Source: Williamsoniiplasma somnilux (GTDB lineage Bacteria > Bacillota_I > Bacilli_A > Mycoplasmatales > Mycoplasmataceae). Taken from it: a stretch of 64,000 nucleotides of DNA. The position numbers and the translations under genes were made by a program. Where the stretch lies: positions 248,001 to 312,000 of the forward strand of contig NZ_CP024965.1 in the NCBI RefSeq assembly GCF_002804005.1, in the 5' to 3' direction. Shown piece after piece: positions 21,740 through 59,875 of this stretch (the first letter of the stretch is position 1; each line of letters opens with the position of its first letter). The notes under the pieces were generated by a model. It was not told the origin of the DNA. It worked only from the letters and a program-made list of their open reading frames with translations, and did no database searches.

Positions 21740-23527
21740 ATGAAAAAATTATTAAGTATTTTAACAACCTTAGGAATAACATCTACCACAGCTACTACAA
21801 TTGTAGCATGTGACAAATATAACAAAACAACTAATATATCAACAATAAAAAATGAATTACAAACTATCATATCAGAAAGAACTGATAGAGCATGGAGTTT
21901 TCAAGAACTCCAAATAAGAGTAGATGAAAATTTTGGCGAGGGAGAAATAACCGTTGAAATCGTAAGAAAGAAAAACTATGATTTCAAAGACATAATTGTT
22001 AATGATTTGTACCGATTTATCGGCAATGGAACTGAAGAAAATGAAGGCATTTATAATGGTTCGATAGAACTCGAACATCAGTGAACTTATACAGTTGATG
22101 ACATTACTTTAATTGGAAACTTATTAAAAGAAATTTTAAATACACCAACAAATCAACACACTTATTGAAAAAAACAAGATTTGCAAGAAACTATTGATCA
22201 AAAAGGATTAGATAAACCCGGTGGAATTGTAGTTGAAGAATTGCAAACGGTAGAAAAAAATAATTCATATAGTTTTATTGGTGGGCAAAAAATTACTGAG
22301 TGAAAATTTGTTGGCCAAGGTAATCCAACAAATGATTTTAGATTTAATGGCGAAATAACAATAAACCATTTTTGAGATGATACAGAAAACACAACTATTG
22401 AAATTAAAGAAATTAAAGAAATATTAAAAACTACTTTAAATGAAAATTTAAGGCAACCTTGAACAAAAGAAGAACTCCAACAAAAAGTTAATAGTCTTGG
22501 AATTGATTCTCCTGGTGGTATTATAGTTGAGGAAATTAATAAAATTCAAAGTATGGCTGCCAATGGTGATTTTGGATCTTCTAAATGAAAATTTATTGGC
22601 CAAGGTGATGTCACAAACAATTATTTATTTGGGGAATCAATAGAACTAGAACATTTTTGAGATAGTAGAATTGATTCTACAAAAAACATATTTTCTAAAA
22701 AAGAAGATTTGCAAAAAATTTTAGACCAGGATAAATACAAACATAAATCTTGAACTGTTGAACTTTTAGAAAAAGCAATCGAAGAAATTGATGTAGCTGA
22801 AGGAATTAGTATCCAACTTGTAGAAAATATTGACACACGTTCTTGAACGGGTGGACCTAAATTAACTAAATGAAAATTTATTGGTAATGGTAAAATTGAC
22901 AATAATTACTTGTACAATGGCGAAATAACTTTAGAGCATATTTGAAATAATAAAAAAGATTCAACTCAAAGTATAAAAACAATAGAAGTTGAACTCAACG
23001 CTATTGTTAACGAAGATGCTAATAAAGGCAAAAAATTATGATTAAACGATCTTCAAGAAGCCGTTAACAGAAAATGACCTAACGAAAAATGAGGAATCGT
23101 TGTTGAAGATTTAACACCACTTGTCAAAAATCGCTCATATGAAGAAAGTAACGGTCAACAAACATTTAAATTTACAGGTCTTGGTAATGAAAATAATACT
23201 TGAATTTATACTGGTAGTGTCGAGATTAATCATGAATGAATTAAAATCAAAGATACAACTCAAAGTATAACTGAAGTCCAAAAGGATTTAAGAAATATTG
23301 TTTACAATAAAGAGCACATTAATAAAAGTTGAGAATTAGAAGAATTACAAACTGCTATTGAACAAGCAAAAATTGATAAAATTGGTGCCTTAACTGTGAA
23401 AAAAGGAACATCAAAAACTAATAAAGAGTACATAATTCAAGAATGAATTATCATTGGTAATGGAAAAATAGACAATGAATATATGTATAACGGAAAAATA
23501 ATGATTGAGCATACATTTATGCTTTAG
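21740..23527 (+). CDS. Modular Trp-rich lipoprotein, six ~97-residue modules
   Basis: A 595-residue exported lipoprotein beginning MKKLLSILTTLGITSTTATT, followed by the lipobox VAC. The Cys of the lipobox is the only Cys I saw. The mature protein consists of six modules of about 97 residues. Each has an opening SWT..(E)LQ helix, a GGIxV strand, a WKFIGxGN motif and a closing I.LEHxW strand. All three conserved Trp positions are usually TGA. No stop interrupts the frame under code 4. RBS AAGGAG precedes the ATG. The stretch 22745-23212 is nearly identical to part of the next gene. I do not recognise the module; a surface-adhesion or ligand-binding role is only a guess. Confidence 0.82.
22745..23212 (+). 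repeat. Near-identical ~468-bp segment, copy 1
   Basis: Aligns without gaps to 25479-25946 (offset 2734), with scattered substitutions. It spans about one and a half modules in two neighbouring genes, as expected from recombination or gene conversion. Confidence 0.85.
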
Positions 23528-23573
23528 CGTTTAGTTTAAAAATTTTTACTTTTAAAAATTAAAGGGAGACTAT

Positions 23574-26500
23574 ATGAGTAATAGAAAATTTAGAAAATTA
23601 GGTTTATTGTTAGTAACAGCAATTCCTGCATCATCAGCAGCTTTTTTTGCAATAAGTTCAAGCAAATATAACATTGAAAATTCAAATAAAGAAGCAAAAA
23701 ATAATCCAAGTGATATTGTCAAAGTTAAAAAGAATCTTGAAGTAATTTTAAACAAAAATATAAATAAAAAATGAGTTGAAGAAGAGTTAAATAATGCAAT
23801 TATAGATGCAGGTTTAGAAGGAATAACTGCTAAAGAAGTAACTAAACCAATTTTCCGTACGATTAACTATGAGTGAAAACAGACAACATGAAAATTCACT
23901 GGTAACGGAGAAAAATATAAAGGTGATCTTGAAATTGCCCATGATTGAATTTCGCAAATAATTTCTTTCGTATCAATTAGTCAAATTGAAAATGAATTAC
24001 AAACTATTTTAACTACTCGAAAAAATAAAAATTGAACTAAAGAAGAACTTCAAATTGCAGTTGATAATGCTAAATTAGATGCTAAAGGAGCAATTGCTGT
24101 TGAATCTGTAGAAAATATTAAAAATCGTAGTTCTCAAGGTGGTGATCAAAAAACTTCTTGAAGATTCATCGGTAAAGGTAATAAAAATGATCAAACAACC
24201 TTGCAATATAAATATAATGATTCAATAGAGATAGTTCATAATTTTAATGATAAAGTAGACACTTCTAAAAATATTATCGAAAAAGAAAATGATATTCAAA
24301 AAATTTTGGATTCAAAAGTTAATGGAACCTGAAAACAAGAAGATTTACAAAAGCAAATTGATGAAACGATTGGTTTGCAAAGCGGAATTGTAGTTAAACT
24401 TGTTGAAAATAAATCAAAAGTTGATTCTTCTAACACAAATTTTGTATTATGAAAATTTATAGGAACCGGAAATATTGATAATGATTTAATTTATAACGGG
24501 GAAATTGTTTTAACTCATAAATGAATTGCCAATGACCAAAAAACTCAAATTTCAACTATTTCTAACGAACTTGATAGCATTTTAAAATCTAAAAAAAATG
24601 GTGAATATCAATGAACAAATGAAGAATTACAAATTGCAATTAACACTTCTGAATTTGGAAAAGATGGTGGTATTAGTGTTGAAGAAAAATCAAAAATATT
24701 AAATAGATCTTCACAAAAAAATGAAGGAACACAAACTTGAATTTTTATTGGTAAGGGTAATAATGAAAATTCATACAAATATACTGATCAAATTGAAATT
24801 TCACATAATTGAAAAACTATATCTGATACAACTCAAGATATTCGAAGTATTATACCTGTAATTGAATCAATTATAAATTCTTCTGAATATGAAAAAAAAC
24901 CTTGAGAACAAAAAGAATTAATGCAAGCGCTTATCAATGCTGAACTTACTGACCAAAATGGAATTACAGTTTCTGAAAATAGCACTACAATTTCTGAAAA
25001 TCGTGTGTCAATTGGTGGGCCAAAAATTACAACTTGAGATTTTGTTGGCAATGGTAAAATTGACAACGAACATAAATATATGGGAAAAATAACTTTGTTT
25101 CACAATTGAGATGATAAACAAGATGGAAGTTATGAGATCAAAACAATTAGTGATGAATTGCAAATAATTCTAGATTCTAAATTAGATGCTTCTTGAGAAC
25201 AATCAGAGTTACAAACAGTAATTAATAATTCTCGTCTTGATCCTCATAACCAAATTATTGTTCAACCAATTTTAGAACAATCAAGCCGTTCTTCAAGTGG
25301 GTCAAAGAATAAAAATTCTTGAAAATTTATTGGTACTGGAAGCCAAAGTAACCCATCTATGTTTAAAGATGAAGTTACATTGATACACAATTGAAATAAT
25401 ATAAAAGAGACAACTGTTGATATTGCAACAAAACAAAATGATTTACAAAACATTATAAATTCAGAAGAATACAAAAATAAATCTTGAACTGCTGAACTTT
25501 TAGAAAAAGCAATTGAAAAAATTGATGTAGCTGAAGGAATCACTGTTCAACTTGTCGAAAACGTTGATACACGTTCTTGAACAGGTGGACCTAAATTAAC
25601 TAAATGAAAATTTATTGGTAATGGTAAAATTGACAATAATTACTTGTACAATGATGAAATAACTTTAGAGCATATTTGAAACGATAAAAAGGATTCAACA
25701 CAAAATATAAAAGCAATAGAATCTGAACTTAACATCATTGTTAATGAAGGTGTTAATAAAGACAAAAAATTATGGGTAAAGGATCTTCAAGAAGCCGTTA
25801 ACAGAAAATGACCTGACGAAAAATGAGGAATCGTTGTTGAAGATTTAACACCACCTGTCAAAAATCGTTCATATGAAGAAAGTACGGGTCAACAAACATT
25901 TAAATTTACAGGTCTTGGTAATGAAAATAATACTTGAATTTATAATGAAAGTATTGAAATAAAACATGATTGAAATCAAAAAATTGGCAATACTCAAAAT
26001 ATTGAAAATGCAAAAAATCAGTTAAAAGAATTTATTAACAACGAAGAAAATCACACCAAAAAAGCTTGAACAAAAGAAGAACTACAAACAGCACTTGATA
26101 ATTCAGGGATTGATACAAAAGGTGGTTTTACCGTTAAAGAATTAAAGAAAAAACCAAGCACTCGCTTAGCAACTCCTGATTGAAAAGAAGATAAATGAAT
26201 TATTGTTGGAAATGGTAAGGATGATAACATTTACAAATACATTGGGGAAATAAGTATTTTACATTATTGAGAAACTGTTAAGGATGGTTCGTTTGATATT
26301 TCTAGAATTGAAGAAGATCTGCAAATATTATTAAATGACAAAATGCATGAATTTAAATCTTGAACATTAAATGAAATTCAATGATTATTAGATTATAACT
26401 ATCCTCCAGGTTCAATTACTGTTGATTATGTAAAATCTGAAGCTAATAAAAACATGAAAAACGAAAAAGAAAATATTGATGAATACATTTTTACCGGTCA

Positions 26501-27323
26501 TGGCTCAGTTGAAAATGATTATTGATACAAAGGTTCAATAAATCTAAAACATAAATGAATCGGAGTTAATAAACCAATTGATTTAGCAAAAGATGCATCA
26601 ATAAAAGGTCAATTGAACAAACTTATATTTGAAAAAAGTTCAAAAAATTCGTCTTGAAATCAGCTAGATTTACAAAAAGCTGTTGATTTAAAAATTGATA
26701 AATCTGGAGGAATTACAGTTGTAATTATAAGCAACAATGCAAATGAACAACAAATTAAATTTATCGGTCATGGGAGTGAAACAAATAGTTACAAATATGT
26801 TGGGGAAATAACTATAAAAAATACATTGACGGATGCTAATGATACAACCATTTCTAAATACATAGATTCAAAAGGAGATTTAGGAATTTTGTCAACTGAT
26901 AAAAAATTTAATTTTGAAAAAATTGATGCTGTAGAATTATTGCAAATTGGTTATAATGCTAATGGAAATGCAGTTTATAACTTTAAAGGTAAAAAAATAA
27001 CTGATAAATTACCAGTTGGAATTAAAAAAATTTCCGATTTCTTTAAAGGTAATTTAAATTTTAAAATTGAAGGTATAGAAAATTGAGATACCTCAAACGT
27101 TATTTCAATGAATGGTACATTCGAAAATGCAAGTAACTTTAATCAAGATATTTCAAACTGGGATACTGGAAATGTTATAGATATGTCGCTTATGTTCAGT
27201 GGTGCTAAAAAATTTAACCAAGATTTAAGTAAATGAAATGTATCTAAAGTTACAAATCATGCTAATTTTGACACTAATGCAAATCCTAACTGAATTTCTG
27301 AATTTAAACCTAAATTTAAATAA
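23574..27323 (+). CDS. Giant modular Trp-rich surface protein, eleven modules plus DUF285
   Basis: A 1,249-residue protein. It starts [20 protein letters not shown] with an N-terminal hydrophobic segment and no Cys, so it is probably anchored by an uncleaved signal helix or fully secreted. Eleven copies of the ~97-residue Trp-rich module follow, with closing motifs such as LEIAHDW, IVLTHKW, ITLFHNW and INLKHKW. From about residue 1,080 the C-terminus carries DUF285 repeats, for example [20 protein letters not shown] and [19 protein letters not shown] precedes the ATG, 46 bases after the previous gene. More than 30 TGA codons are read as Trp. It is probably co-transcribed with its neighbours. 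Confidence 0.82.
25479..25946 (+). repeat. Near-identical ~468-bp segment, copy 2
   Basis: Partner of 22745-23212. At one aligned Trp codon this copy has TGG (25771) where the other has TGA. Confidence 0.85.
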
Positions 27324-27351
27324 TTTTTGAATTAAAAAAGAAAGGGAGGTT

Positions 27352-30300
27352 ATGAAAAAATATAAGCAATCTATTAAAAAAATAGGATTACTTTTAGTTA
27401 TCTTTTCAACTTTATGAAGTTTTTCGGTCTTGATTTTAAGTTCAAAAAAATATTATTCACAAAGTATAAATGAAAATGCAAATAGTTTAAAATTTGAAAT
27501 TCAAAAAATTTTAGATACAAGAAATCATTCTTCATGAACTGAACAAGAATTGCAAAATGAATTAATCACTCATAACATCGATAACGCTGAGCAAATTACA
27601 ATTAGTGAGTTAAATTCAACAGAAATTGAAGTTAATAACGTTAAAAAAATTGAAACTTTTTGGAAATTTAAAAATTTTCAAAAAAGTTTTAATAAACAAT
27701 TTTTAAATTTTGAAATAACATTAAAACACACAAGAAATTTAAAAACGAACGACCTTGTTAGCATAGTAAAAATTCAAAGCAATTTACAACAAATTGTTAA
27801 CAAAGAGTTTAAAAAACCGTGAACAAGTGCTTCTTTAGAACAAGCTATTGTCTCTAATAATATTGATGTTGCTGGAGGAATATCTGTTAAAGCTGTAAAA
27901 CAACAAGAATCACGTTCCGCTAGCTATGAATGAAACTCATCTGAATGAATTTTTGTGGGTAATGGTATTAATTATAAAGATGAAATTACACTAATTCATA
28001 AATGGTTAACAAAGATAGATTCGAGTGTTTCAATAAGTCAAATTAATACTGAATTACAAAATGTTTTAGATAACAATAAAAATTCAATTTGAACAAAACA
28101 AAAATTACAAAAGGCGGTTAACTTTGCTAAATTAGATCAAGAAAATGCAATTTTAGTTGAAGAAGTTAGCTTTAAAGATGAACGAAGTTGAACTGGTGAT
28201 GAACATTCAAATTTATGAAAATTTATTGGTCAAGGAAACGTTGATAATGATTTTAAATATAAAAATGAAACTACTTTAACTCATCAATGAAATAATAAAA
28301 TTGATAGTTCTCAAAACATTTTTTATGCAAAATCGCAATTGGAAGAACTTTTATCAAAAAAAATAAATGAGGGTTGAACACAAAACGATTTGCAAACAGC
28401 TATTGATAATTCTAAAATCGATAAGATTGGAGGAATTAAAGTTGAACAAGTAGAATTCAAATCTCAAACATCGACTGATTCTTTAAATGTTGATCAATGA
28501 AAATTCACAGGAAATGGGACTATTGACAATGAATTTCTTTATAAAGGGCAGATCACACTACTTCATCAGTGAAATGATTATAAAGACACAAGCAAAGATA
28601 TTGGTGTCATTGCAGATTTGTTAGTTGAAATTGTTAATGAAAAAGAAGATAAAAATTCCCCTTGAAATCAACAGCAACTTCAAGATGTAATAGATAATTC
28701 TAAAAAGATTGATAGTCCTGGAGGAATCAGTGTTTCTGAAAAAATAATTAATCAACGTTCTTCTAATTCAATTAATGAGGTACAAACATTACTTTTTATT
28801 GGTAAGGGTAATGAAAATAATAATTACAAATATAAAGGAACAATAGAACTTAATTTTAATTGAACTAAAATTGAAAATACTACTCAAAGTATTTTTAATA
28901 TTGCTAATCAATTGCAAAATATCATAAATAAAAAAGAATATAAAAATAAACAATGAACATCATTAGCTTTAGAACAAGCGATTATAGCTGAAGAACTTGA
29001 ATCTACCGGCGGAATTAGTATAACCAGCAATCAAAAAGAAAATAATAATTTTTCATCAACTGGAGGAGCTCAACAAACCACTTGAACTTTTACCGGTAAA
29101 GGAACGATTAAAAATGAATTCAAATATGATGGACAAATATCGATAATTCATAATTGAAATGACAAAGTAGACAATAGTTTTAATATTAAAACTATTGAAA
29201 ATAAACTTCAAAATATTTTGAACTCTGATGCTTATAAAGATAAAAAATGAAATGCAATATCTTTAGAAAATGAAATTATTAATCAAAATTTAGATATTGC
29301 TAATGGAATTATTGTTCAAGAACTTGAAACTGTTGATTTACGTTCTTCAAGCGGTGGTCCTCATCAGACAACTTGAAAATTTATTGGAAATGGAAATTCA
29401 ACAAATCCATTTAAATATAATGGTGAAATTACATTAATTCAAAAGTGAAATAATTACCAAGACACAACCAAACCAATTTCAGATATCCAATCAAAATTAC
29501 AAGACATTGTAGATTCTGCTGAATATCAAGAAAAACAATGAACTTTAGCAGAATTACAAAAAGAGATTGATAACACATTTGGAATTAAACAAATAACTGT
29601 AAAATCATCTAAATTAAATGATAATTTAGATTTTTATTCTTGAAAGCCAGAGCCTCATACTGACAAATATATTTTTCAAGGTAATGGAAATGGTAGCAAC
29701 CAATATCTCTATAAAGGACATGTTGAATTAGAACACAATTGAAATAAGCGAGTAGATACAACCATTGATTTTACAAAAGATAAAGAAATGTTAATTGACC
29801 TTTATCGTATAATCGGTTCTAAAAAAGGCGCTTGATTTAATGAAGAATTAAAATTAACAATAGAAAAAAAATATGGCAAAAATTCTTTCGAAATTAAAAT
29901 TGATGACTCAGAAGATCTTCAACAAATTCAATTAACTGGAACAGGTTCAATCGAAAACGAAAATAAATATAAAGGTAATTATGTTTTTAAAAAATATATT
30001 ATTGGTGATGGAATTAATGATAATTTTAAGATTATTTATCTAGATTCTAAATTAAATTTATCCTATCAAACATACTTTGATTTCGAAAAAACTGATGCGA
30101 TAGCTATTTTATCACTTGCTACAAGTGAAAATTCAGTTAAAAATTTTAAAGGTAAATATATGCCAGAAGAGCTACCCACTCAAATAGAAAATATAGATTA
30201 CATGTTCGCAGGAAATCCTAATGATAAAATTGTTGGAATAGAAAATTGAGATACTTCAAATATAAAAAGTATGAAAGGAACATTTGAAAATGCTTCAAAA

Positions 30301-30783
30301 TTTAATCAAGATTTAGACAAATGAAGTCTTATAAATGCTTTAACAATAGAATCTATCTTTCAAGGAGCTTCTTCCTTTAATGGTAATATTACAAATTGAA
30401 AAACAAATAATGTAATAAATTTTTCATCAGCATTTGAAGGAGCCTCTTCATTTAATCGTGATTTAAATTGGATTACATCAAATTTAGAATTCATGATAAA
30501 CACCTTTAGAAATGCTACCTCATTTAATGGTGACATTTCTAATTGATGAGTAGGTGAGCTCGTTGTTATGGATGGAGCATTTGAAAATGCTATAAATTTT
30601 AATTGCGACATATCTAGCTGAACAACAACGAAATTAGAATCTATGGGAGTTGCATTTAGAAATGCCAAAAATTTTAATCAAGATTTATCAAAATGAGATG
30701 TTAGATCTGTTGGTTATCACAGTATGTATGATAGTGGCGCTGATAAATGACAATCAAATTACAAACCAAGATTTAATAATTAA
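27352..30783 (+). CDS. Giant modular Trp-rich surface protein, about nine modules plus DUF285
   Basis: A 1,143-residue protein. It starts MKKYKQSIKKIGLLLVIFST, a basic and hydrophobic signal/anchor region with no lipobox. About nine Trp-rich modules follow; the first and last are degenerate (ITLKHTR in the first, VFKKYI in the last). The C-terminal quarter (from about residue 880) is DUF285: IENWDTSNIKSMKGTFENAS, then repeated FNxDISxW units up to FNQDLSKWDVRSVG. AGGGAGGT precedes the ATG, 28 bases after the previous stop, so the block 21740-30783 looks like one operon. A tandem TGATGA (30544) encodes Trp-Trp. Function unknown; surface display is inferred from the signal segment. Confidence 0.82.
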
Positions 30784-30909
30784 TAGAAAAAGTTTTTATA
30801 AATTAAGATAATTTAAATTAATAAAAATTGCATAAAGAATATATATTTTATGATAGATTTTTAAAATAAAAATATCTGAATTATAATAAAAATTTTATAA
30901 AATTTCAGA

Positions 30910-31353
30910 ATTTAATTTTCAAAAAATAAAACTTAAGCAAATAAATAAAATCGCTTATGATGAATATATCAATATAATAAATCACTTTGGGGACAAAAAA
31001 CTTCCAAATAAATTACCCAACTAAATAGCAAGTTTTAAAATTTTTTAATGAAAATGGCAACAAAATTATTGGGAGAATTAAATGTCGAGATGTACAATTT
31101 AATAATTTAGATGTAATATGTTTTTAAAACTTGTAATAATTCTAATGAAGAGATTTCTTGATAAAGAGATTTTAATTCAAAAACAATGGAGAGCATGTTT
31201 AGGGGAATGAAAAAATTTAATAGTGATATTTCTAATGTTATTTATATCATTAGTGTGTTTAAATCTGCCATCAGTTTCTATCAAGATTTAAGTTTTTGAA
31301 ACATAAAAAAATTACTTATTTTAACAACTTTTAATAAAAGAATTTTAAGTTAA
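30910..31353 (+). pseudogene. Second decayed DUF285 gene
   Basis: Frame fragments match the intact DUF285 gene at 34199. FNFQKIKLKQINKIAYDEY aligns with FNFKKIKAKEILKLGYDKN, followed by HFGDKKLPNKLPN and a stop. Later, after frameshifts, come TMESMFRGMKKFNSDISN and FYQDLSFWNI. Stops and shifts make it untranslatable as one protein. Confidence 0.7.
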
Positions 31354-31601
31354 AATACAAATTTTACTAAATGAAAAAAACTTTAAAAATAAAAAATAGA
31401 TAAATTACAAAATAAATTAAATAAAATTTATGAAATAAATATAATTTCAGTTAATAGCAATTTTGTGTAAATTATTTGTTCAGAAACATACAAAGAACAA
31501 TTAACATTTGTTGTGGCTGTATATTGTAGTATCAATTGAATTTTAATGGAAACAACGTTATTAATTTACACTTGAAATATAATATAGTTATTATAAATTT
31601 T

Positions 31602-31632
31602 AAAATCTTGCAAATATTTGCAAGATTTTTTA
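31602..31632 (+). terminator. Strong hairpin terminator without an intact gene in front
   Basis: AAATCTTGCAAA pairs with TTTGCAAGATTT and runs into T6. It follows the DUF285 pseudogene and may be left over from a lost gene, or end the large operon. Confidence 0.75.
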
Positions 31633-31799
31633 TTGTACATTTTTAAATTTACTACATTGTTTTTATACATTTAAATCATTATTGTTTATAAATTTTATCT
31701 TGTAAATTATAAATGAGCAAGAACAAATAATTTTACGAATAAGTTTTTTGTTTGACAAACTGTTTATACTAAATTTATTTAGTTTTTTCCAAGAACCAA

Positions 31800-31826
31800 T
31801 TGCTTTTTTTTTTTTTTTTGTAGAAT
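31800..31826 (+). promoter_or_regulatory. Promoter with T16 homopolymer in the -35/-10 spacer
   Basis: A -35-like TTGCTT (31800-31805) and an extended -10-like TGTAGAAT with TAGAAT at 31821-31826 are separated by 15 bases, made of 14 T and a G. The whole T run is 31804-31819. The same TTGCTT serves as -35, with a 17-base spacer, in the rRNA promoter of this window. Slippage of the T run would change the spacer and switch the downstream modular protein on or off. Confidence 0.6.
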
Positions 31827-31929
31827 GAATAACACATAATAGTGTTAAAGTTTCAAAATATAGGTTTATCCTTTATTCTTTTAAAAAATGAATTATTATA
31901 TAAATTTTTATTAATCATCGAGGTATTTA

Positions 31930-34053
31930 ATGAAAAAAGAAAAAAGCAATTTTAAAAAGATCATATTGTTACTTATTTTAATGGTTCCTTTGGCAGCAAC
32001 GCCTTTTATTATTTTTGGATTATCTCAAAAAATTTCTAAAGATATATCATCAATTCAAAATGAATTACAAAGTATTTTAGATCAAAGATTAAATAAATTT
32101 TGAACAAAAGAGGAATTACAAGAAGAACTTAATAAAAAATATGGTAATAATGCAATTAATGTTGAATTAATTTTTTTTAACTATGCCCAAAAATCTTTTG
32201 AACAAAAAACTGAAAAATATAAATTTACAGGCAATAACTTAAACAATGATGAAACCATATATACAGGTTCAATTGAATTAGCTCATAATTTTAAATTAAA
32301 TAAAACTAAAAATATTTTTGAAGTCAAAACCCAACTTCAAGACCTTCTAAATTCCCCTGATTATACAAACAAGAGTTGAACCAAAACAGCATTAGAACAA
32401 GCCATATTTGCTGCAAATATCGATGATGCTGGGGGAATTAGTGTTGAAGAAATTAAAACAATTAACACCCGAGCTTTTACAGGAGGTCCGCAAAGCACAT
32501 CTTGAAAATTTACTGGTCATGGAAATCAAAGCAATCATTGAAAATACACAAACCATATCACGTTAGAACACAATTGAAATAATCTTGAAGATAAAACCCA
32601 AAACATTATCAACATCAATTCTCAACTTCAAGACCTTCTAAATTCCCCTGATTATACAAACAAGAGTTGAACCAAAACAGCATTAGAACAAGCCATAGTT
32701 GCTGCAAATATCGATGATGCTGGGGGAATTAGTGTTGAAGAAATTAAAACAATTAACACCCGAGCTTTTACAGGAGGTCCGCAAAGCACATCTTGAAAAT
32801 TTACTGGTCATGGAAATCAAAGCAATCATTGAAAATACACAAACCATATCACGTTAGAACACAATTGAAATAATCTTGAAGATAAAACCCAAAACATTAT
32901 CAACATCAATTCTCAACTTCAAGACCTTCTAAATTCCCCTGATTATACAAACAAGAGTTGAACCAAAACAGCATTAGAACAAGCCATAGTTGCTGCAAAT
33001 ATCGATGTTGCTGGGGGAATTAGTGTTGAAGAAATTAAAACAATTAACACCCGAGCTTTTACAGGAGGTCCGCAAAACACAACTTGAAAATTTATTGGTC
33101 ATGGGGATCAAAGCAATCATTGAAAATACACAAACCATATCACGTTAGAACACAATTGAAATAATCTTGAAGATAAAACCCAAAACATTATCAACATCAA
33201 TTCTCAACTTCAAGACCTTCTAAATTCCCCTGATTATACAAACAAGAGTTGAACCAAAACAGCATTAGAACAAGCCATAGTTGCTGCAAATATCGATGAT
33301 GCTGGGGGAATTAGTGTTGAAGAAATTAAAACAATTAACACCCGAGCTTTTACAGGAGGTCCGCAAAACACAACTTGAAAATTTATTGGTCATGGGGATC
33401 AAAGCAATCATTGAAAATACACAAACCATATCACGTTAGAACACAATTGAAATAATCTTGAAGATAAAACCCAAAACATTATCAACATCAATTCTCAACT
33501 TCAAGACCTTCTAAATTCCCCTGATTATACAAACAAGAGTTGAACCAAAACAGCATTAGAACAAGCCATAGTTGCTGCAAATATCGATGATGCTGGGGGA
33601 ATTAGTGTTGAAGAAATTAAAACAATTAACACCCGAGCTTTTACAGGAGGTCCGCAAAACACAACTTGAAAATTTATTGGTCATGGGGATCAAAGCAATC
33701 ATTGAAAATACACAAACCATATCACGTTAGAACACAATTGAAATAATAAAAAAGATTCATCAGAAAATATTATAAACATCCAAAATATTTTACAAGATAT
33801 TTTAAATTCTGAAGATTATAAAAGAAAAAGTTGGGATAAAGTTGAATTAGAACAATTATTAATTTCAATGAATATTGATGTTAAAGGTGGAATTGTTATT
33901 GAAGAAGGAGAAACTATAAAGCATACTTCTAAAAAAAGGGGACCACACACCACGACTTGAAAATTTGTTGGAAACGGAAATATAAATAATTATTTTAAAT
34001 ATAATGGAGAAATTATTTTAGAACATAATTGAAACAATAAATGAATACAGTAA
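31930..34053 (+). CDS. Modular Trp-rich surface protein with 291-bp tandem array
   Basis: A 707-residue protein. It starts MKKEKSNFKKIILLLILMVP, a signal/anchor segment without Cys. Seven ~97-residue Trp-rich modules follow. The first and last are diverged, while modules two to six are nearly identical and encoded by exact 291-bp repeats. The repeat contains NKSWTKTALEQAI, DAGGISVEEIKT, TSWKFTGHGNQSN and ITLEHNWNN. GAGGT precedes the ATG. Unlike its relatives it has no DUF285 end and is its own transcription unit behind a T16-spaced promoter. Array and promoter together suggest a size- and phase-variable surface antigen; that is inference. Confidence 0.83.
32332..33747 (+). repeat. In-frame tandem array, 291-bp unit, 4.9 copies
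   Basis: The anchor GACCTTCTAAATTCCCC recurs at 32341, 32632, 32923, 33214 and 33505, exactly 291 bases (97 codons) apart. Copies one and two share AGCACATCTTGAAAATTTAC, whereas copies three to five have AACACAACTTGAAAATTTAT. The copies therefore arose by stepwise duplication. Confidence 0.97.
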
Positions 34054-34198: not shown

Positions 34199-34864
34199 AT
34201 GAAAGAATTCAAAGAGATAAAAAAAATAGAATCGGAATGAACTGAATATATTGATTCTAATAATGACTCACAAAAAACTAAGGAATTTAATTTTAAAAAA
34301 ATTAAAGCAAAAGAAATCCTTAAACTTGGTTATGACAAAAATGGATGTACTATTCATCATTTTAAAGGCAAAAAAGTTCCCAATAAATTGCCCATTGAAA
34401 TTAGAAGTCTTAAAAGTTTTTTTAGTAATAATCCCAACAAAATTATTGAAGGTATTGAAACTTGAGATACAAAATTAATCTTAGATATGTCATATGTTTT
34501 TGAAAATTGTAAAAAATTTAACGGAAACATTTCTCGTTGAAGAGCTTTTAATGCAACAACCATGGAAGGAATGTTTAAAGGTGCTAAGAAATTTAACAAT
34601 GACATTTCTGATTTATATACATTTCGAGTTCATAATATGAAATATATGTTTAAGGATTCAATAGAATTTAATCAAGATATTTCCAATTGAAATATCGTAA
34701 ATCTTAAATTTTTTCGATCAATGTTTGAAAACGCTCATTCTTTTAACAAGGATTTATCAAAATGAACTTTTTGTCAAGAAATTGTTTTTTCAACAGATTA
34801 CGATAAAAATGCAATCTCTTGAGCGGATTTTAATAAACCAAAATTTAATAAAAAAAATACTTAA
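34199..34864 (+). CDS. DUF285 repeat protein without signal peptide
   Basis: A 221-residue protein beginning MKEFKEIKKIESEWTEYIDS. It shows no hydrophobic N-terminus, unlike the neighbours that carry DUF285 at their ends. Residues 30-80 match the pre-DUF285 region of the giant proteins (FNFKKIKAKEILKLGYDKNG, KKVPNKLPIEI). The DUF285 repeats follow: [60 protein letters not shown] and MFENAHSFNKDLSKW. AAGGAGA precedes the ATG at good distance. Either it is cytoplasmic or it is a detached cassette for recombination with the long genes. The two DUF285 pseudogenes in the island are its decayed relatives. Confidence 0.8.
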
Positions 34865-34907
34865 ATTATAAAAAATCTCGTATATAAAACGAGATTTTTT
34901 ATAATTT
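34863..34907. terminator. Bidirectional terminator between the DUF285 gene and azoreductase
   Basis: A 19-bp stem: AAATTATAAAAAATCTCGT with its complement, loop ATATAAA. The A/T tracts in the stem give T runs on both strands. Confidence 0.9.
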
Positions 34908-34909
34908 AA

Positions 34910-50134: not shown

Positions 50135-50163
50135 TTGCTTTTTATTTTAAAACTTGATATTAT
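50135..50163 (+). promoter_or_regulatory. rRNA promoter P2
   Basis: TTGCTT (50135-50140), a 17-base spacer, TATTAT (50158-50163). The leader then contains GATCTTTGAAAAC, a boxA-like site that is also the left arm of the 16S processing stem. Confidence 0.7.
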
Positions 50164-50303: not shown

Positions 50304-51830
<1,527 letters not shown>

Positions 51831-58200: not shown

Positions 58201-59875
58201 AGATTTTGTCAAAGAATTTGAAATGACTTTATTTGGTATTACCGCTTCCAATAAACTTGATCAATATAACAATATTTATTTAAGCGATATTTCAAGAATT
58301 TTGTCGTTTGAATTAGCGCAAAGTTTTGCAACACAATTAGCTAAAGATATCATTGACGAATCTTTAAATAAAAATCTTTTTGTTCAAGATGAATCGCAAA
58401 TTATAAATGATGTTTATAAACAAATTAGTAATAATTTGATTTTAAAAAATTTTAATCCCGAAAATGACAAATATTGAAAAATTATTAATAATCCATTAAT
58501 TGATTTAAAAAGTTTAATTTCTGATGATATTACTAACCCTAAAATTGAAGATGTAATTTCAAGCAAAATTTTAAAAGCGAAAATAAATCAAACCAAAAAT
58601 CAAGATGGACTATCGTTTACTGGGTTATCTAAATCAGCTATCTCAATTATTACTACATCAATGATGATTGACAAACCCAATTCTTTAAAAGAAGAATCTA
58701 TCATAGCGATAAATCAATTACTTTTTAATAAAAACACCGAAACACTTTCTAACAGCTTTGAAGCATTACTGGATAGAAAACATTACGAAAATCCAGTTGA
58801 TGTTGCTATTTATGCTATGGATTTTAAAGATTGAAAATATGGTGATATTCGAAATAATTTAAATTTCTCTGGAGTTTCAAATGATACTTTTGCAACTTTA
58901 CACAATCCTAACTTCAAAAAAGATGAAACTGCTTTAAAAGCAATTATTCCTTATGCGGTTGCAAGAAAAATGAATTGAGAAGTTAATGATATTGTTTATA
59001 TGACTTCACGCACAAGTTTGTTAAAACCATTTACAATTCAAATTGTTGGTATAAATAAATCAATGACATTTAGTTTAACTGATGATTGACCTATTATTGT
59101 TGATTATGATAACTATGCTGAACAAATGTTTAGAAAGCAAGCTTATGAAGAATTTAAAGTTTCACAAGAAATGATGTTTGACCGTATGTATTCTAACGAA
59201 ACTTTATTAGAAGGTAAAGTTGATGTCTGAAACATTAGTAAGTCAATATCTTCAATGAAATTTAAAGGTTTGTCATTAACTTTTTCAATTAAAAACGATT
59301 CATCAGTTTTTATGTCAATTTTTGGTAGCATGCTACCCGAACTACCTAATGTTCTTAGGGTTGATAAAAATCTTTTATTGGTTACAAATCCTAATCTAGC
59401 ATTCATAAGTGATAAATCTGGTGTTGCTCCATACAATATTTTATTAGCAACAGTTGATAATGTTACTCAGCAATTCAATACAATCATGATTATTTTCTTG
59501 GTTTTACAAACTTTCTTGTTAGCAATAATTTTAATTGTTGTCATGAACATTATTGTTGATGAAGCTTCACAAATTATTTTGACAATGAGAGCCCTTGGTT
59601 ATAAAACTAAAGAAATCAATTGAGTAGTAATGGGTAAATATATTATTGGAGCAATTATTTCATTTATAATTGCTTACGGTTTATCAATGTTGATTTGGTA
59701 TATAATTTTAACAGTGATTGGTAATGAATATCAAATTTATATTTTTTTACCATTTGAGTGAAAAGCATTAGTTGTAACTTTTTTAGTTCTATCTGGAATT
59801 ATTGGACTGGGTTGGTACACTGCTTACAAACAAGTTAACAAACGTAAATTGAATCAAATTACTAACTTTATGTAA
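55241..59875 (+). CDS. Very large FtsX-type ABC transporter permease
   Basis: A 1,544-residue membrane protein. It begins MRLIIKSYLKTFTKNLTALV, the first membrane segment. A large extracellular region (about residues 45-590) follows, then three membrane segments of an FtsX/MacB-like domain, with KKEINETRRQLGIFKSFGYK in the coupling loop. A second, similar set with a fourth-segment connector starts near residue 760. Another extracellular block precedes the C-terminal FtsX domain, which has DEASQIILTMRALGYKTKEI. No ATPase gene is adjacent, so the partner must lie elsewhere. GGGAGGT precedes the ATG. Substrate unknown; such proteins in mollicutes are thought to handle lipids or lipoproteins. Confidence 0.88.

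Follow-up and report, generated by a model that had tools for sequence, protein, structure and literature searches.

In Mycoplasma arthritidis, the lipoprotein gene maa2 reportedly carries a poly-T tract upstream of its -10 element together with 264-bp in-frame repeats, and the length of this tract is said to be tied to ON and OFF clones. One report (PMC2268961) describes maa2, along with vlp and vmm, as switched by insertions and deletions in the promoter spacer; the same report attributes the switching of vpma to Xer1 recombination and describes the vpma T tract as shown not to generate variation. Homopolymer VNTRs have further been found in the 5' flanks of the DUF285/PARCEL genes of M. capricolum (PMC2996958).

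The locus described here lies in a 64,000-nucleotide stretch (the window, positions 248001-312000) of the 868,413-bp genome of Williamsoniiplasma somnilux. Williamsoniiplasma is a firefly-associated Mollicute. Coordinates refer to the window unless given as genome positions. In this report, we describe a T16 run that fills the promoter spacer of a modular surface-type gene, and we think it reasonably probable that the run is a simple-sequence contingency element, serving as a slippage-type promoter switch of that gene. What began as an observation at a single site now extends to a module found across the genome and the family.

Results

Anatomy of the promoter and its surroundings

Direct reading of the sequence gives TTGC-T16-G-TAGAAT on the plus strand at 31800-31826. 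A -35-like element, TTGCTT (31800-31805), whose final two T are part of the T run, and a -10 element, TAGAAT (31821-31826), are 15 nt apart, and the simple repeat between them reads T14G; the run itself, a putative slippage element, comprises exactly 16 T (31804-31819), of which 14 fall inside the spacer. In all these respects the locus is as the preliminary description had reported it. Transcription is predicted to start at 31832-31834, 6-8 nt past the -10 element, from the -10-to-start spacing of 6-7 nt mapped in Mesoplasma florum (PMC7745072). The ribosome-binding site, GAGGT, follows at 31920-31924 and the reading frame begins at 31930, 104 nt from the promoter; a second -10-like hexamer, CATAAT, is found ~15 nt downstream of TAGAAT.

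Terminator-like hairpins flank the unit on both sides. One, with a 12-bp stem (AAAATCTTGCAAATATTTGCAAGATTTT, 31602-31629, plus strand), may insulate the promoter from upstream transcription, and the other, an unstranded 20-bp inverted repeat at 34862-34908, marks the end of the unit; the pattern scan for such hairpins found 2 against 1.0 expected, which is modest alone. The ~820 nt that end in the upstream hairpin (30784-31601) contain no plus-strand ORF of at least 60 aa and no Rfam match, and could house a small RNA or a gene remnant.

The gene behind the promoter (31930-34053, plus strand) encodes a surface-type protein of 707 aa in genetic code 4 (TGA = Trp), in which an N-terminal hydrophobic segment is followed by a domain of ~90-97 aa in seven copies. 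A tandem array at 32332-33747 on the plus strand (291-bp unit x 4.9, 99% matches, units differing at 1-21 of 291) encodes the five central copies; it is a candidate size-variation element that bears out the earlier claim of an array behind the promoter and has the near-identical in-frame repeats of the Vlp/Maa2 architecture. The product had also been called signal-bearing: the hydrophobic segment is present, but the N-terminus, MKKEKSNFKKIILLLILMVPLAATPFIIFGLSQ, has no lipobox Cys of the kind that marks the Vlp/Maa2 lipoproteins. Judging by the hydrophobic segment and the repeat domains, the product would be surface-exposed. A Pfam search of 31930-34053 found no DUF285, the domain of the DUF285/PARCEL genes.

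The ~97-aa repeat domain is predicted to have an alpha2-beta3 fold (pLDDT 93.7) and matched neither a Pfam family nor a PDB fold (best E 0.47). Pfam matches of the whole product (NodZ, FAST_2, Acb2 and others) were rejected as compositional or repeat artefacts, since no separate stretch passes and single copies are unmatched. A likeness of the domain to the spiralin domain, an idea that came from a T16-linked protein of a relative (G004), was also rejected (profile comparison probability 0.2%), and a genome-contig search with the 31930 surface protein found no named relative. Many genes of the genome carry the domain, which in the window extends over 21740-34050; the genes at 21740, 23574 and 27238 hold diverged copies of it, and two of them end in DUF285. 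By Pfam, DUF285 occurs in the neighbours 23574 and 27238 and in the gene at 34199-34864 (plus strand, E = 4.3e-53). The latter is possibly co-transcribed with the 31930 gene, to judge from the absence of a strong terminator between the two.

Long homopolymer runs in the genome

Run-length statistics were drawn from 417 kb of genome stretches, to which whole-genome pattern counts were added. The 417 kb contain 200 T runs of length 8, 10 of length 9 and none of 10-15, after which seven of 16 and one of 17 appear. For A/T runs, the gap at 10-15 measured in these 417 kb, followed by runs of 16-17, forms a threshold-and-attractor pattern. A/T runs of at least 13 number only eight in the whole 868 kb, the same seven of length 16 and single one of 17. 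None of the eight is coding, and each lies at most 250 nt upstream of a gene start, in regions that make up 6.8% of the sequence. Seven are immediately preceded by TTG or TTGN, versus 7.8% of runs of 5-8 (P = 1.4e-7). A match of 12 T was not rare in dinucleotide-preserving shuffles; the shuffle model is inflated by the long T runs themselves, which makes this test uninformative, and the run-length gap is the better test. The gap, the TTG enrichment and the 8/8 position upstream of genes rule out a chance T run.

The single 17-run, an A17 at genome positions 343387-343403 (L064), is preceded by TTG on the strand antisense to the flanking genes and has no convincing -10 element; it lies 28 nt before the start codon of a modular paralog (343432), which is too close for the shared layout. 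It was left out of the promoter set, which comprises six T16 promoters and one A16 promoter, seven in all.

The six T16 promoters have the form TTG(N)-T16-(1-2 nt)-(-10), with a TTG-to-(-10) distance of 21, that is, a spacer of 15, in 6/6. In genome coordinates, they are located at 58923 (before a DUF285 gene at 59042), 74478 (before a lipoprotein gene at 74574 with a 240-bp x 7.9 array), 279804 (the promoter of the 31930 gene, plus strand), 334339 (before a modular paralog at 334559), 576664 (run 576649-576664, minus strand, L066; before an ABC transporter and then a lipoprotein) and 707503 (tract at 707488, minus strand; before a DUF285 lipoprotein), the last having two candidate -10 registers, AAAAAT or TAAAAA. 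The A16 promoter, TTGC-A16-GT-TAAACT with a spacer of 16 (402611-402596, minus strand, L065), precedes a C5 cytosine methylase gene that adjoins a ResIII/PLD restriction gene, and 402596-402611 is a candidate phase-variable restriction-modification locus. The genes behind the set accordingly comprise modular/DUF285 surface proteins, a repeat lipoprotein, an ABC transporter and restriction-modification; lipoproteins, transporter and restriction-modification are classes typical of contingency genes. The genome gave no MutS_V match, in a search whose control was positive in 11/14 genomes, and slippage would thus go uncorrected by mismatch repair.

Conservation among relatives

Long tracts were surveyed in 12 genomes, the present one and 11 relatives, in which orthologs are non-independent and the counts therefore descriptive. 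The survey yielded 76 tracts of at least 13, with lengths of 15 (n=15), 16 (n=49), 17 (n=9), 18 (n=2) and 19 (n=1); TTG or TTGN precedes 44 of them, and the base after the tract is G in 59. Across these 12 genomes the -10 score peaks two bases past the tract only in the TTG-preceded group, the modal spacer is 15, and TTGV-T11 occurs 11 times versus 0 for the reversed pattern. Tracts in the relatives that have no preceding TTG also have a length mode of 16.

Two further genera, among whose members is Mesoplasma grammopterae, have a recognisable counterpart of the ABC-transporter promoter, CTTG-T16-GTGACAAT, which thus occurs in three genera in all (loci L066, L069, L075-L079, L081, L102 and L103). 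Among the ten tract-bearing ortholog promoters, with Mesoplasma grammopterae counted once as G042 appears to be the same sequence, the tract is T16 in nine and T20 in one (G011); two more matches are tractless. The G006 copy is flanked by TTGC ... A, not TTG ... GT, at the same spacing. Other orthologous or paralogous promoters differ by at least one T (15/16/17; 16 vs 20), examples being G040 compared with G041 and the T15 and T16 twins within G040, and such differences are as slippage predicts.

Tract-linked genes in the relatives encode Bmp, DUF285, spiralin-domain and phosphonate-binding proteins, PTS permeases and a GmrSD restriction enzyme. At one locus (L128, G004:C1:124700-127800), TTG-T16-CT-TATAAT precedes a gene for a spiralin-domain protein that contains an in-frame array of 234 bp x 11.3; promoter and repeats are combined there as at the 31930 gene, with a repeat domain that is unrelated. 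At another (L130, G004:C1:199600-202800), T18 comes right after a hairpin, AAGAACCGAAAGGTTC, as an over-long terminator tail, and long T runs in the family are therefore not confined to promoters.

Spacer length and promoter state

The preliminary description had based an optimum of 17 on the 17-nt spacer of the rRNA promoter, and had suggested that the T16 promoter, two T short of it, is weak or off. The rRNA promoter is indeed found as claimed, TTGCTT-17 nt-TATTAT at 50135-50163, with 16S downstream at 50304, but the suggestion is not supported: a spacer of 15 occurs in all six T16 promoters and is the mode of the family, and no TTG peak appears at spacer 17 among 212 ordinary TANAAT sites (5 seen, ~4 expected). 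These sites have an extended -10, TGN, with TG enriched three bases before the -10 (21 vs 5-10 at neighbouring offsets), and transcription start mapping in Mesoplasma florum gave TAWAAT with TGN and no conserved -35 (PMC7745072). The -35 elements of the group appear weak, and spacing may therefore matter less than in E. coli. Because the T16 state recurs, including nine times at one conserved transporter, we favour a working state, or a slippage balance point, over an off state for T16 with a spacer of 15.

Discussion

Our data suggest a model whereby DNA polymerase slippage would add T to, or remove T from, the T16 run. With each such change, the TTG element and the -10 box would be displaced relative to each other by one base pair (roughly 34-36 degrees of twist), with a consequent effect on transcription. 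Protein length would vary by a separate route, through in-frame recombination among the 291-bp repeats. Independent slippage at the six T16 promoters and the one A16 promoter would then combine different expression states for the surface proteins, a single ABC transporter/lipoprotein operon and a single restriction-modification locus. This model involves a high slippage rate of the runs and expression set by spacer length, both of which we infer. Our reading of the run as a switch rests on the classes of gene involved, the accompanying in-frame repeat arrays, the absent MutS and the precedents. The original proposal of a phase-variation-type promoter is thus supported in its homopolymer-filled spacer before a repeat-bearing surface gene, to which the recurrent conserved layout, the contingency gene classes and the absence of MutS lend weight, but not in its weak or off state.

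Tract lengths are strikingly uniform (7/8 at 16; 9/10 at the ABC transporter), whereas a switch that drifts freely should show a spread. A static promoter element, in which T16 is a fixed rigid A-tract spacer that favours or tunes transcription, would account for the length of 16 in seven of the eight runs and in nine of the ten tract-bearing ABC promoters across genera, as well as for a spacer that stays at 15 despite changed flanks (TTG+GT vs TTGC+A); vpma offers a parallel in its non-switching T tract (PMC2268961). We nevertheless regard such an element as unlikely, though not negligibly so, since a run this long would be hard to copy faithfully without mismatch repair, the tracts of other orthologous genes vary by at least one T, the gene classes are those of contingency genes, and ordinary promoters need no T spacer. 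The occurrence of the same mode, 16, in tracts without TTG suggests that length is set by a slippage balance wherever such a run exists, which fits hypermutability and weakens the claim that 16 is selected for transcription. It is doubtful, although worth considering, that the run belongs to a family-standard module, TTG(N)-T16-(G)-(-10), with length held near 16 by a balance of expansion and contraction, flanks tuned to the constant 15-bp spacing and a fixed mix of T15, T16 and T17; if true, this would give the genes of surface proteins, sugar uptake and restriction an inherent bet-hedging ratio, with no drifting ON/OFF switch.

The same balance could operate with no regulation at all, if runs past ~10 grew by biased slippage to ~16 anywhere and promoters merely tolerated them. 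The mode of 16 shared by non-TTG T runs of relatives, the T18 run at an intrinsic terminator (L130) and the empty gap at 10-15, which fits a threshold, agree with this explanation, but it leaves unexplained the TTG enrichment, the fixed -10 offset, the conserved ABC-transporter promoter and the gene classes, and it could hold for length with the promoter role still intact; we consider it improbable. Least credible to us, and very improbable, is a true promoter elsewhere, for example at the CATAAT ~15 nt downstream, with the T run acting from upstream as in Helicobacter pylori sabA. An extended -10 without a -35 is the norm of the group and the second -10-like hexamer is available, but TAGAAT lies at an offset common to other T16 promoters, and the T run is inside the spacer, whereas in sabA it is upstream of the -35. 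For the slippage-type switch that we favour, the narrow length mode (16) and the constant spacing (15) pose the question of whether T16 is a working length, an off length or a slippage balance point.

If the switch interpretation is correct, a considerable share of the regulation in a near-minimal, regulator-poor bacterium would depend on a few homopolymers. Promoter switching of the vlp/maa2 kind would then reach past the animal mycoplasmas in which it was described, as a compact genome-wide and cross-genus promoter set in which a transporter and a restriction-modification locus are represented.

By its layout and gene classes, the T16 set probably belongs to the promoter-spacer contingency loci already known from mycoplasmas. 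With sabA it shares the principle, established there and proposed here, that T-run length sets promoter activity; however, the sabA tract, a graded rheostat, is found beside the -35 and not in the spacer (PMC4081817), whereas the present tract is within the spacer. In the vpma genes of Mycoplasma agalactiae, too, a homopolymeric T tract comes right before the -10. The vmm/vmc system of Mycoplasma mycoides, from the same wider clade, resembles the present one in having a simple repeat in the promoter spacer of lipoprotein genes, but that repeat is a dinucleotide, (TA)n (PMC3053259), in place of T16. The PARCEL/DUF285 genes of M. capricolum are also same-clade surface protein genes with 5' homopolymer VNTRs; the 31930 gene differs in having no DUF285, a domain that its neighbours and several of the T16-linked paralogs do contain. 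Mycoplasma hyorhinis vlp combines a homopolymer in the promoter region with a surface-gene family and a separate size variation of repeats (PMC10502178), as proposed here; its tract is poly-A and its lipoprotein genes are clustered, whereas the present tracts are mostly poly-T at scattered loci that include an ABC transporter and restriction-modification, and the likeness is one of layout. As in maa2, a poly-T run lies just upstream of the -10 of a surface gene with near-identical in-frame repeats (264 bp in maa2, 291 bp here). Unlike the maa2 lipoprotein, the 31930 product has no Cys lipobox, and its tract is one of a seven-promoter set. On our best reading, M. arthritidis maa2 and M. hyorhinis vlp are the closest precedents of this promoter.
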